From NCBI GenBank assembly GCA_021604665.1, contig BQJK01000001.1:868001-932000 (forward strand): DNA of 64,000 bases, in the 5' to 3' direction. Under the pieces are notes generated by a model, which was not told the origin of the DNA, ran no database searches, and worked only from the letters and a program-made list of their open reading frames with translations. Position numbers and translations under genes: made by a program. The stretch is from Rhodomicrobium sp. Lineage in GTDB: Bacteria > Pseudomonadota > Alphaproteobacteria > Rhizobiales > HXMU1428-3. This document shows, one piece after another, positions 47,007-61,188 of this stretch (position 1 is its first letter; each line of letters starts with the position of its first letter).

Positions 47007-50000
47007 TTAAGCAGCCTTAACCCGCAATTTAACCTTAGGCTTAATCATAGATGGGTTCTTGGTAAGCCCAGGGTTAAGTTTGATAATATCTTTATAGCGA
47101 CCGCCATTGCCATAAACACGCTGCGCAATTTTCCAGAGATTGTCACCAGCCTGCACAATGTAGAACTCTGTCTCCGCCTCGTCTTTATCACTAGCGGATT
47201 TTTTACTGTCATCAATTTTGGCAACTGATTTTTCAGTTTTCTGCTTTTCATTAGCCTTATCAATGTCGATAGCTGCTTTTTTCTCGTTAACCTTAATGGA
47301 TTGGGGATTAACAGGCTCAGCTTTTTCAGCTAGCTCAGCACCCTCACGCACAATCAGCTTCTGCTTCGGGTAAATAAAGTTTGCGCTTTTGAGCTTGGGA
47401 TTCAGTTTCAAAATATCTTTATATTTCTGGCTGTCTCCCAAAACTTTCTGAGCAATTTTAGACAATGTATCCCCAGGCTTCACCACATATGTGGTAGCCA
47501 ATTCAGGCTCAGCCACAGCGGCGGCCTTATCGGCACCATTTGTCTCACTCTCTGATTTTTTAAGGTCTGCCTGATCATCTAAAGCCGCGCTCTCTTTGGC
47601 GGGGTCTTTATCTAAAACAGCAACCTCAACAGCTTTAGCCTGACTTTCAACTTCGTCTTTTTTTAATCCCTCATCGGCATCTGCTTTCAAAGCAGCCACT
47701 GGCTTTTCTTCTTTTACAGTTTTATCAGGCGAAGCAATTTTATCATCATCAGTTTTATCTGCTGCAGATTTCGAAGCCTTATTTTTCAGGCCAGAAACTT
47801 TTTGTTTTTTGCCTTTACCAGCCCTGGCAACATCATCAGAAATTGACGCAACCACAATATGATCAGCGCTATCCTCATCATTTAAACGATGCTGACCTTT
47901 GATATCTGACACTTTCCGAACTGGCAGTGGCAGATCTTTGGTAACAGCAGTGCCGACATCAGAAATTTTCCCACCAGCATTACTGGCTAATGGAGACATG
48001 CCTTTCGCAGATAAAAGCGGAGAACCTCCACCAGCCTCATCGGCTTTCAACTTATCCCGCATAACGGCTAGCGCTTTATCACCAAGCCCAATACCAACCG
48101 TATCAGCTTTGTAGCCTTTGGGTTTTTTCAAAGCTTTGGTCTGAGCAAACGGCATCGTCTTACGCGCCAGAGTTAGCCCGCCTTTTGACATATGTTCCGC
48201 ATGGACAAGATGCCCGCCCTGCGGCAGATAGAGCGATTTTGTAATCGTCCAGCTGCCTGTTTCATCCGTATCAACATCGCCAAGATAGGTCATATCAATA
48301 TAGATAGAAAGCCGGGACAAAGGCTGAGAACGGCCCTGAATAGACAGCTCTCCCTCGCCTTTTTTGGCGCTGATAAGCTTATAATCAATCTGATCAAGCA
48401 TCAGAGATTTCATGGCAGCAAAGCGCACTTCATCAACCCGGGAAACATCAGGCTTATCTGAAGGTTTCAGGTCTTTATCATCCCCATCAGTAATAAGCGC
48501 CAGTATATTCTTAAGTTTCGTAACCACACCATTCTTAGGTTCTTCCACTTTAACATCACTGGCCGGATCTAAGCCGGCAACTCGCTCACCATTGATTTCA
48601 GGGGCGACACCAATGGGCTGCAATTTAGCTGACACAAATGGCTTGGGCTCACCTTCACCGCTCGTAGTATCCTTCTTTTCATCACCTGAAATAATACTGT
48701 TCTTAATAACCGGCAAACTACCCTCTGGCAGCGCAGCCACTTTTTGCTCTTTACCCTCAGGCCGTTTATCGGCTGTTTCAATAGCGTCCCGTTTTTTATC
48801 CTTGGCAGCAACAGCAGGCTCAACCAAAGCAACATCAGCACCTTTTAATTTGGGTAAATCAGGTTGTGTCGCTTTATCACCAGCTTCACTCACGGCAACA
48901 TCGCTGCTATCAGCCTTGAGCTCGCCAGAGCTTTTATCACCAGACTTTTTACCTGCTGTCACTTCTGATGCAGTTTTCTTATCCAATGTCTGATCTGCTT
49001 TAACGACCTCAGCAGCATCCGTTTCTGCTTCAGCATTCTCTGCTTCAGTGTTGTCAGCTTCATCAACAGACTTCACATCAAGCGCCGCCACAGCAATCTC
49101 ACTATCCGTAACTGTCTCTGGCTTATCACCCCAAACATTACCAGTTGGCACTGACCAGCGTTTCGGTGCAGCAACAGCTTCCTTAACATTACTGCTCAAC
49201 TTACTCACGGTTTTGGCAATACCATCACCAGCTTCAACAGCCACATCCTTCACATGGTCAAAGCTACGCTCAATTTGAGCTACAACACCATATTGCGGAT
49301 CGGCCGCATCAGGGACTTGCCAGATCGGAGCTTTCTTATTTTCTTCAACCTGACCAGTAGAGGCTTCATCTTTAGAAGATAAATCCGCGCCGCCATCAGC
49401 CAAACGAAGGGTCGATTGATCCTTATTATCCGGTGCGCCTTTCTCATTATCCAGAAGCGCAGTTTCAATAACGCCTTGTCTGTCTGCTTCTTTGCTATCA
49501 ATAGCCTCCTCACCGATGAGATCCTTCGGCGCAGCGGCGGCTTCACCTGCCGCTAATTTCTTATCGGCATTCTTAATGCCATCATTGACCAGCCGTTCTT
49601 CATCTTTGCCTAATAGCGCAGGCGCTTTTGTAACAGCTATTTCTGAGGCTTTAGCTCGTTCATTCTCAGCAACCGGCTTTTTCTTGGCAGCAGCGGCAAC
49701 AGCAACTTTACTTGAAGACTTATCTTCACTTGCCACATCTTTTACTGGGGACACCTCTTTTGCCGGGGCCTCCTCTTTAGCCTTGAGAGGTTCAGCTGTC
49801 TTCGCAGGTTTTTCAATAATTTTGGGCGTCGCCGCAATAAGCGTTGCTAATTCGGCATCAACAGCATCCATCAAATCAGAGGACCCTGTTTTCTTAGCCT
49901 TTTTAGTTTTCTTGACGGCAGCAATTTTAGCCGCCTTAACACCAGTTATCTCACTATTCTTCTCTTCTACATTTTCAGTGATAGATGCGGTCACTTCTTC

Positions 50001-51419
50001 CGCGTCCTGCCCCTCATACTTATCAACAGGCACAGCTACACGGTCTTTCGGCAATCGGCTGATGTCTTTTATGATCTCAGGCGCAGACGGCGCCGCAGTC
50101 ACAGCCTCTTGTTTCACATCAGAGAGGCGCACTTCAATCTTATCAATCACCTCAATTTCTTCAGGGCTGGGCGCTACATCATAATAAGCAATCCGGCGGT
50201 TATTCCCATCATGGTCCTCATAGGCAAAGGCCAATTTGTCAGCCCGCCCATGATGAACCAACCGCGTGCCGTCTTTGGTTTTTAAGTTTCCATCCTGGTT
50301 ATATTCAGGTTGAACACCAGTTGGAATTTCCCACTTGCCTTCATTATCCGCCAAGCGCATTTGGTCTATATATACCGGGTCATTGCCATCAGGTACCGAC
50401 CAAATTTTATCACCAACAATGGTGGTCTTCACATCACTCGCTATAGAGCTGATCTTTTTGCCAACAGTCTCAGTGGCGTCAGCAGCCGAACCGCTAACTT
50501 CATCCGCAATGGCGGCAATCTTCTGCGACACTTTCGGGTACATCGGGTCAACACCTGTTGGCACATGCCATGGGCGGTCCCCAACACGAAGGGCGGTGCT
50601 CTCATCATAATCTGGGTCAGCGCCAAAAGGCACAGTCCAGGGGGGTGCGTTTAAAGTCGGTGTTTCTTTAACTGCTCTGACAAGCTTTTGAGCTGTCATC
50701 TCAGCAATCTTGGTTTCTGCAGTGGCTTTGTCAGGTCCAGCTATCGCCTTTAAATCATCAACGGCTTCTTTAAGCTGGATACCATTCTCAGCTTTTACCT
50801 TCGCAGCTGTAATTTTGTCGCCAACATCCTGATCACTATCAGCATCAGTTTCAGCAACAGCAATCTTATCAGAACCGCTCACTGCCTCATCAGAAACAGC
50901 ATCATCTTTAACTGCGCGGCCGTTCTCGGCGGTAATCTCAGCACCATCCACCGCGGCGACATTAGAGCTATCCACTTTGGCATCAAGTGGCTCACTCTCT
51001 TTGCGCAGCGGAAGATTAATCTCAGCCAAGGCAACCTCAACCGAAATTCCATTATCGCCCTTAGCCTCACCAGCACCCTTAACCTCACCAGCATTGGCAA
51101 CAGCAATCGCCGGAATGTCACTAGTCATATCTGCTAGCCCATTCGTCACACCTTCGGTAAGTTTGCTAAATTCTTTCGAAGCCGCAGCAGCTAATTCATC
51201 TGCCCGCTCCAGGGTGGATTTCGCCTCATGATTAGCTACAGGTTTGTACTTAGCTTCATCAGCCCGTGGCTGATCAGCTTGAGCAAGTGCCAAGCTCCGT
51301 CGGTCCTGGTTTGTCTCCCAAAGGGAGTAGACAGTCGCCCCCCATAGAACACAGGCCGCTAAAGCCAGAGAAACCGATACTGTTCGCACGCCGTACATTT
51401 GGTGGCACCTTTCATACAC
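47007..51419 (-). CDS. giant repeat-containing LysM protein (1470 aa)
   Basis: N-terminal TM, several W-x-[VI]-P...P-x-Y motifs, Ig-like segment (GELSIQGRSQPLSRLSIYIDMTYLGDVDTDETGSWTI), two C-terminal LysM domains. Start may be 51398 (MYGVRTV..., AGGTG upstream). Confidence 0.9.
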   Translation of the reverse strand: MYERCHQMYGVRTVSVSLALAACVLWGATVYSLWETNQDRRSLALAQADQPRADEAKYKPVANHEAKSTLERADELAAAASKEFSKLTEGVTNGLADMTSDIPAIAVANAGEVKGAGEAKGDNGISVEVALAEINLPLRKESEPLDAKVDSSNVAAVDGAEITAENGRAVKDDAVSDEAVSGSDKIAVAETDADSDQDVGDKITAAKVKAENGIQLKEAVDDLKAIAGPDKATAETKIAEMTAQKLVRAVKETPTLNAPPWTVPFGADPDYDESTALRVGDRPWHVPTGVDPMYPKVSQKIAAIADEVSGSAADATETVGKKISSIASDVKTTIVGDKIWSVPDGNDPVYIDQMRLADNEGKWEIPTGVQPEYNQDGNLKTKDGTRLVHHGRADKLAFAYEDHDGNNRRIAYYDVAPSPEEIEVIDKIEVRLSDVKQEAVTAAPSAPEIIKDISRLPKDRVAVPVDKYEGQDAEEVTASITENVEEKNSEITGVKAAKIAAVKKTKKAKKTGSSDLMDAVDAELATLIAATPKIIEKPAKTAEPLKAKEEAPAKEVSPVKDVASEDKSSSKVAVAAAAKKKPVAENERAKASEIAVTKAPALLGKDEERLVNDGIKNADKKLAAGEAAAAPKDLIGEEAIDSKEADRQGVIETALLDNEKGAPDNKDQSTLRLADGGADLSSKDEASTGQVEENKKAPIWQVPDAADPQYGVVAQIERSFDHVKDVAVEAGDGIAKTVSKLSSNVKEAVAAPKRWSVPTGNVWGDKPETVTDSEIAVAALDVKSVDEADNTEAENAEAETDAAEVVKADQTLDKKTASEVTAGKKSGDKSSGELKADSSDVAVSEAGDKATQPDLPKLKGADVALVEPAVAAKDKKRDAIETADKRPEGKEQKVAALPEGSLPVIKNSIISGDEKKDTTSGEGEPKPFVSAKLQPIGVAPEINGERVAGLDPASDVKVEEPKNGVVTKLKNILALITDGDDKDLKPSDKPDVSRVDEVRFAAMKSLMLDQIDYKLISAKKGEGELSIQGRSQPLSRLSIYIDMTYLGDVDTDETGSWTITKSLYLPQGGHLVHAEHMSKGGLTLARKTMPFAQTKALKKPKGYKADTVGIGLGDKALAVMRDKLKADEAGGGSPLLSAKGMSPLASNAGGKISDVGTAVTKDLPLPVRKVSDIKGQHRLNDEDSADHIVVASISDDVARAGKGKKQKVSGLKNKASKSAADKTDDDKIASPDKTVKEEKPVAALKADADEGLKKDEVESQAKAVEVAVLDKDPAKESAALDDQADLKKSESETNGADKAAAVAEPELATTYVVKPGDTLSKIAQKVLGDSQKYKDILKLNPKLKSANFIYPKQKLIVREGAELAEKAEPVNPQSIKVNEKKAAIDIDKANEKQKTEKSVAKIDDSKKSASDKDEAETEFYIVQAGDNLWKIAQRVYGNGGRYKDIIKLNPGLTKNPSMIKPKVKLRVKAA

Positions 51420-59898: not shown

Positions 59899-61188
59899 AT
59901 GCGTAAAATGAGCACTTCCATAGGCGCTTATATAGTCGGGTTAGGTTCTCCGTCCAGCACGACTAAACCGGCCAAAGCCACCAATTATGTATACCATTTT
60001 GTATTTTGCCTAATCGCATCAACAACATTCAGTTTAACCAAACCAACCATCGCCTATGCTGGCGACGTTAACTGCTCCCTTGTGATCCTGGGCTGCGAAA
60101 CAGATGGCCAGGATGATATTGTTGATGATTCAATCGACAGCGCTGATATACAAGATGGCACCATCACCTCTGATGATCTGGCAGCGGATGTAATTACAAC
60201 AGATGAGCTCGCAGATAACGCGGTCGATACAGCCGCCATACAGGATGACGCTGTCACAGCCGCCAAACTCAACGCTGACACAGCTGGTGATGGCCTCTCA
60301 CAAGATGGCGCAGGAGCCCTTCAGGTGAATAGCGGTAATGGCATCGAAGTGACCGGAGACGCTGTAGCAGTTGATCTTGGCGACGCTTCCACAGCGGGAA
60401 ATACCAATTCTGGCCTTGAGTTCATAGGCGGCGACCTAACAGTTGATGTCGATGATACCAGCCTTGAAGTTGGTGTTAATGGCCTGCAAATCAAAGCAGA
60501 TGGTGTCACCTCAAGCCACATTGCTGCAAATGCCATCACGGCAAGTGAGCTGGCTGACAATTCAGTCGATACCAACGCCATCATAGATGGCGCCGTCACC
60601 ACAGCAAAACTGGCCGATGGAGCCGTCACCACAGCCAAAATCGCAGATAATGCCGTAACAACAGCCAAAATCGCCGATGACGCTGTGACAACAGCAAAGA
60701 TTGCCGATGACGCCGTGACAACAGACAAAATTGCAGATGATGCCGTCACCTCAGACAAGCTCGCAGATAATGCCGTTGATACAGACGCCATCCAGGACGG
60801 CGCTGTAACCGCTGCCAAACTCGCCCCCGGTATTATCGGCGGCACTTCTATTTCAGATAACAGTATCAACACCCAGCATTTAGTGGATGGGGCAGTCACC
60901 TTCAATAAACTGGGAACAGATGTTCAAAACCGCATCACCTCACTTGAAGATAACGTCAACAGCCTCAAAGGCGGTGTCGCTATGGCAATGGCCACCGCAA
61001 ATGCCCCTGTAATATTAGAAGGGAACAAGCAATTCTCTCTCAGTGTCGGTATCGGTTTTTACGATGATCAGGCAGCAGGTGCTTTTAAAGGTGCCGTGAG
61101 ACTAGGTGACCATTCAGTACTACAAGGCAGCATGGCCTTGGCAGAAGATAATATCGGCGGCGGCATCGGCATTGGTATTGGCTTCTAA
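59899..61188 (+). CDS. YadA-like / trimeric-autotransporter-like repeat protein
   Basis: Signal-like N-terminus, AVTTAKIADD decapeptide repeats, C-terminal ~80 aa resembling a YadA anchor and ending in Phe. Confidence 0.72.
   Translation: MRKMSTSIGAYIVGLGSPSSTTKPAKATNYVYHFVFCLIASTTFSLTKPTIAYAGDVNCSLVILGCETDGQDDIVDDSIDSADIQDGTITSDDLAADVITTDELADNAVDTAAIQDDAVTAAKLNADTAGDGLSQDGAGALQVNSGNGIEVTGDAVAVDLGDASTAGNTNSGLEFIGGDLTVDVDDTSLEVGVNGLQIKADGVTSSHIAANAITASELADNSVDTNAIIDGAVTTAKLADGAVTTAKIADNAVTTAKIADDAVTTAKIADDAVTTDKIADDAVTSDKLADNAVDTDAIQDGAVTAAKLAPGIIGGTSISDNSINTQHLVDGAVTFNKLGTDVQNRITSLEDNVNSLKGGVAMAMATANAPVILEGNKQFSLSVGIGFYDDQAAGAFKGAVRLGDHSVLQGSMALAEDNIGGGIGIGIGF
60590..60825 (+). repeat. ~30-bp in-frame tandem repeats (10 aa period)
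   Basis: Units such as gccgtcaccacagccaaaatcgcagataat / gccgtaacaacagccaaaatcgccgatgac / gctgtgacaacagcaaagattgccgatgac. Confidence 0.85.

Follow-up and report, generated by a model that had tools for sequence, protein, structure and literature searches.

In E. coli the lipoprotein Lpp joins the outer membrane to the cell wall, and the order Hyphomicrobiales is without that link. In Hyphomicrobiales the outer membrane and the peptidoglycan are connected covalently through beta-barrel proteins, in a chemistry that involves L,D-transpeptidases and an N-terminal alanyl-aspartyl motif (PMC10787603). Those proteins solve the same problem of holding outer membrane and wall together without Lpp; their covalent chemistry is not part of the case described here. 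A second system for comparison is HubP/FimV, membrane-anchored proteins which place a LysM domain on the peptidoglycan and have a long stretch of acidic, unstructured sequence that differs in length and repeats from one related species to the next (PMC12918733). The scaffold protein studied here is likewise anchored and has LysM domains and a long acidic unstructured region. However, HubP/FimV carry their LysM domain in the periplasm at the N terminus and their acidic region in the cytoplasm, with a TPR/FimV domain at its end, whereas in the scaffold the hydrophobic segment is N-terminal and the LysM domains are C-terminal, and a Pfam scan of it found no FimV/TPR domain. Judged by its sequence, the scaffold is similar to HubP/FimV in style without having the features that define them.

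The closest described relative is an Ig-like/LysM protein found across the order Hyphomicrobiales at the LOG-ATM1-psd-pssA locus; the scaffold gene is its orthologue in this genus. LOG, an ATM1-type ABC exporter, psd and pssA are the neighbouring genes in the window (the whole stretch of 64,000 nucleotides analysed) and in the genus, and the families examined outside it show all or some of them. Thirteen open frames with Ig-like and/or LysM-like text occupy the corresponding position in other families of the order. The scaffold shares with the order-wide protein an N-terminal anchor, an Ig-like region and C-terminal LysM (here one Ig-like and two LysM domains). The frames of the order-wide orthologues, in contrast, are 369-739 aa long against about 1463 aa and lack the WxVP(T/D)G motif; those that were read have a single LysM domain, C-terminal or nearly so. 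Taken by itself, the scaffold gene is nothing unusual within this envelope family of the order, and its product is a lineage-specific version of a protein type already known; what is new is a tryptophan motif and its reuse in a second protein.

The scaffold gene, its start and its domains

The scaffold, a very long cell-envelope protein, is encoded by a minus-strand ORF at 47007-51419. The 1470 aa given in the initial annotation are correct for this ORF, but the protein probably starts at codon 8, the ATG at 51398, because the orthologues of the genus align from that codon and AAAGG lies shortly upstream of it. The gene would then span 47007-51398 (-) and encode a protein of 1463 aa, 155 kDa and pI 5.1. 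The sole hydrophobic segment is N-terminal, a transmembrane anchor at about residues 12-34 (51318-51386, -) also seen in the genus orthologues, with a probable N-in/C-out orientation deduced from charge. The C terminus carries LysM domain 1 (47349-47489, -) and LysM domain 2 (47019-47162, -), both matching PF01476 (6e-19). The Pfam scan of the scaffold returned only LysM-type and Phage_tail_X matches, and the LysM pair are the sole confident domains. The Ig-like (Big_13-type) domain at 48123-48440 (-) is kept in the genus; its match in the scaffold itself was weak and below threshold (Big_13, E 0.05), and it was clear in one orthologue (Big_13 5e-11, Big_6 3.5e-9). The LysM pair proposed initially was thus confirmed directly, and the Ig-like segment by way of the orthologue; the proposed anchor is supported by the sequence. 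The linkers are long and disordered and, as had been described, rich in acidic residues, Lys and Ala.

Motif copies, their spacing and the helices between them

Six W-x-[VI]-P motifs are present, including the degenerate sixth copy reported before. Counted along the 1470-aa ORF, they are motif 1, WTVPFGADPDY, at residue 261 (50607-50639); motif 2, WHVPTGVDPMY, at 284 (50538-50570); motif 3, WSVPDGNDPVY, at 340 (50370-50402); motif 4, WEIPTGVQPEY, at 363 (50301-50333); motif 5, WQVPDAADPQY, at 700 (49290-49322); and motif 6, WSVPTGNVWGD, at 755 (49125-49157), all on the minus strand. All came from the motif search, and motif 5 has in addition an aligned copy in six other species. In most of the other species WEVPTGVTP or WEIPTGVTP stands at the position of motif 6. 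In 5000 shuffles of the protein, the mean number of motifs was 0.08 and the maximum 2. Over 32 copies, 29 from scaffold orthologues of seven species and three from the lipoprotein described below, the 11-residue consensus was W-x-[VI]-P-[TD]-[GA]-x-x-P-x-Y. The search fixed positions 1, 3 and 4 and left 5, 6 and 9 free; position 5 was nevertheless T or D in 30 of 32 copies, position 6 G or A in all 32, position 9 P in 30 and the final position Y in 20. Since the codons for these near-invariant residues at positions 5, 6 and 9 differ among copies, it is the peptide that has been kept, and the copies are not a recent DNA repeat.

The motifs do not lie scattered at random. The first four motifs of the scaffold are spaced 23-56-23 and the last two 55; the corresponding spacing is 23-57-23 in species G007 (where the first copy is degenerate, WVIADANSPEY) and 23-57-24 in G001, and the last two motifs are 55 apart in all motif-bearing species. 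Amphipathic, hendecad-like helix A (50406-50537, -), with a moment peak at 98 degrees and a helix in a low-confidence model, lies between motifs 2 and 3, and helix B of the same kind (49164-49289, -), assigned from species alignment, periodicity and a model, between motifs 5 and 6. These are the 'IAxxVS' segments already noted as helical; each has about 42 residues and a periodicity of 97-100 degrees, close to hendecads. Two W-helix-W arrangements recur, W-23-W-57-W-23-W and W-55-W, with a helix of about 42 residues inside each. Part of the array thus forms an ordered W-helix-W module in place of a set of independent motifs. Structure prediction, which had been proposed as a check, gave with AlphaFold one helix flanked by disordered, unpacked motifs, at low confidence (mean pLDDT 38 and 55). 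A match of module B to GrpE in the PDB (E 0.008) was taken as a generic helix match.

Such a module could be purely structural, the W motifs acting as caps or hinges of hendecad coiled coils formed within the same chain or with a second scaffold chain, and no outside partner being involved. The recurrence of two W-helix-W modules, their constant spacing of 55-57 and the periodicity of the helices agree with this. However, many copies are helix-free (the first three in G001 and that at residue 432 in G007), the three lipoprotein copies lie in acidic linkers without helices of this kind, and the motifs are unpacked in the low-confidence models, so that we consider a structural repeat unlikely. 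Alternatively, the helices could lie on the surface of the outer or the inner membrane, with the flanking Trp and Tyr residues anchoring them at the interface. The 11-residue type of amphipathic helix with aromatics at both ends would fit, but the hydrophobic moments are modest (0.29-0.50) and the net charge is near zero. Moreover, membrane contact requires the aromatics only, whereas T/D5, G6 and P9 vary no more than these do, and the lipoprotein copies again lack the helix; this reading appears quite improbable.

Distribution within the genus and beyond

The source genome (G000, 2.9 Mb) was compared with seven further species of its genus; one of these is a MAG whose deposited name is Methyloligella sp. 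DHS20C07, and several are Hyphomicrobiales MAGs. Six of the seven have kept the motif, in 2 to 9 copies: nine in G001, six in G007 and two each in G002, G003 (cut by a contig end), G004 and G006. Within the clade G002/G004/G006 both motifs are 100% identical, as compared with 86% for helix B, 88% for the Ig-like region and 51-61% for the linkers. In the available part of the G005 orthologue (L042) the Trp motifs were not recognisable, and helix B and the adjoining text were retained. A tree of two neighbouring genes, LOG and citramalate synthase, pairs G005 with the source species (support 0.90), and for this reason loss of the motif is more likely than its primitive absence; the copy itself looks decayed. 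Apparently, the motif can be dispensed with somewhere, as helix B persists there without it, and this natural loss could show what helix B does alone.

The G001 orthologue (L040 3517-7416, +) appears to have three LysM domains besides its nine motifs. The first of these motif copies lie within near-tandem repeats of 36-54 residues (PKSKPIWVVPDG), which suggest that expansion is ongoing.

Outside the genus, the W-x-V-P-T/D-G motif was absent from the 13 orthologues, where the nearest W-x-L-P was WTLPKAAI in one Ig-like region. Absence from orthologues, named initially as an argument against the motif, was found in these 13 from other families and, within the genus, in the available part of G005 alone. 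No motif cluster was found in non-genus genomes (398 of the order and 386 of the class searched). The full pattern including the final Tyr occurred five times in the source genome, six times in G001 and five times in G007, where four of the matches fall within the gene, against at most one match per genome outside the genus, save one genome with two matches on separate contigs; this outside rate resembles that of a reversed-pattern control. Lone matches elsewhere (WRVPAGKGP and others) are isolated, in line with that control. A whole-protein scan of named genomes gave zero matches, probably due to patterns drawn from poorly conserved stretches. The module B scan succeeded: a profile search of the order matched seven genus genomes and one of 391 others, a weak match in G301 (L109) that on inspection lay in GC-rich unrelated frames and was judged to be chance.

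In agreement with the initial reading, the motif is uncatalogued: over the motif region neither Pfam nor NCBIfam gave a match above cut-off, and a literature text search for the motif yielded nothing relevant. Below cut-off were DUF2793 (0.028, lipoprotein residues 159-185), which we take to be a phage-associated family, and DUF7811 (0.15, module B). A reading of 'VPTG' as a sortase signal was ruled out by its wrong length and internal position.

This restricted distribution could also be explained if low-complexity sequence in a fast-evolving linker had expanded in this lineage under weak selection or none, as the motif is absent outside the genus, varies from 2 to 9 copies, is not recognisable in G005 and looks tandem in G001. 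Against this, the motif is compositionally complex, its sequence is held while codons and linkers diverge, its spacing is kept and it recurs in an unrelated lipoprotein, all of which makes an origin of this kind improbable.

An acidic lipoprotein with the same motif and a possible docking role

A genome-wide pattern search located three more copies clustered at G000:C1 101316-101549. They belong to an acidic frame of about 217 aa (L056 7317-7970, -; G000:C1 about 101316-101969) with a signal peptide, a lipobox ISGC (LLIAMSAGISGC) and then a long acidic linker. Its motifs are WEVPTGNDPIG, WMVPTGADPIS and a C-terminal WSVPTGADPQY, the frame terminating exactly at the final Tyr of the motif, which suggests that this residue marks the motif boundary. 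The location is probably the outer membrane; under the E. coli Lol rule, Leu at +2 would favour it. No orthologue of the lipoprotein was found in the genus (the search match spans residues 2-215, the query being slightly off at the first residues), and a weak match in G005 (L092) was attributed to chance, being DUF2793-type by eye (YIVATGATGAW).

The lipoprotein is otherwise unrelated to the scaffold and carries the same motif, in the same proteome and in a disordered context. Low complexity explains this reuse less well than a linear motif for which the two proteins have one envelope partner in common, and two unrelated envelope proteins with a common complex motif are the strongest evidence for what would be a common recogniser. 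Common descent of the motif segment by shuffling might also account for the resemblance. The earlier proposal of a short linear docking motif has become clearly more likely through the lipoprotein; it now has to be narrowed, as the motif is confined to the genus and partly belongs to a W-helix-W module.

Because the genus conserves the motif, the orthologues examined outside it lack it and the lipoprotein reuses it, docking to an envelope partner is its probable role. The inner membrane would hold the scaffold N terminus, a largely disordered stretch of about 1000 residues would span the periplasm, and the Ig-like and two LysM domains would keep the C terminus on the peptidoglycan. One envelope partner would recognise W-x-[VI]-P-[TD]-G-x-x-P-x-Y, and relatives of the genus would be without this partner or use it differently. 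The copies would be displayed multivalently, some of them flanking an amphipathic helix on both sides, and this helix may in turn associate with other helices. With the tag on the acidic lipoprotein, the partner would also engage a lipid-anchored protein and could tie it, probably from the outer membrane, to the peptidoglycan-bound scaffold. For this proposal as a whole, from anchored scaffold to lipoprotein link, we consider the chances to be even. The lack of a recognisable motif in the available part of G005, the finding of the lipoprotein in the source species only and the low confidence of the structure models weigh against it. A further step, a genus-specific periplasmic 'address tag' system in which one receptor reads the tag on scaffold and outer-membrane lipoprotein to form a non-covalent trans-envelope bridge, its strength evolving via motif number, is speculative and we regard it as doubtful.

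Linear motifs are well studied in the eukaryotic cytoplasm, and to our knowledge few are known for bacterial envelopes. The TolB-binding epitope of colicin E9 offers an analogy for how the motif might act, as a short disordered segment bound by a soluble periplasmic protein in competition with the lipoprotein Pal (PMC12927319); the likeness would be one of mode of action rather than of sequence. A motif that a single genus has acquired on a conserved envelope gene, with changing copy number and a lipoprotein bearing it too, would be a compact case of the evolution of wiring.

Elsewhere in the window, 59899-61188 (+) encodes a secreted protein in which 'AVTTAKIADDAVTTDKIADNAV' repeats follow one another head-to-tail and the C-terminal segment is glycine-rich; it is reminiscent of the stalks of trimeric autotransporters or tail fibres.
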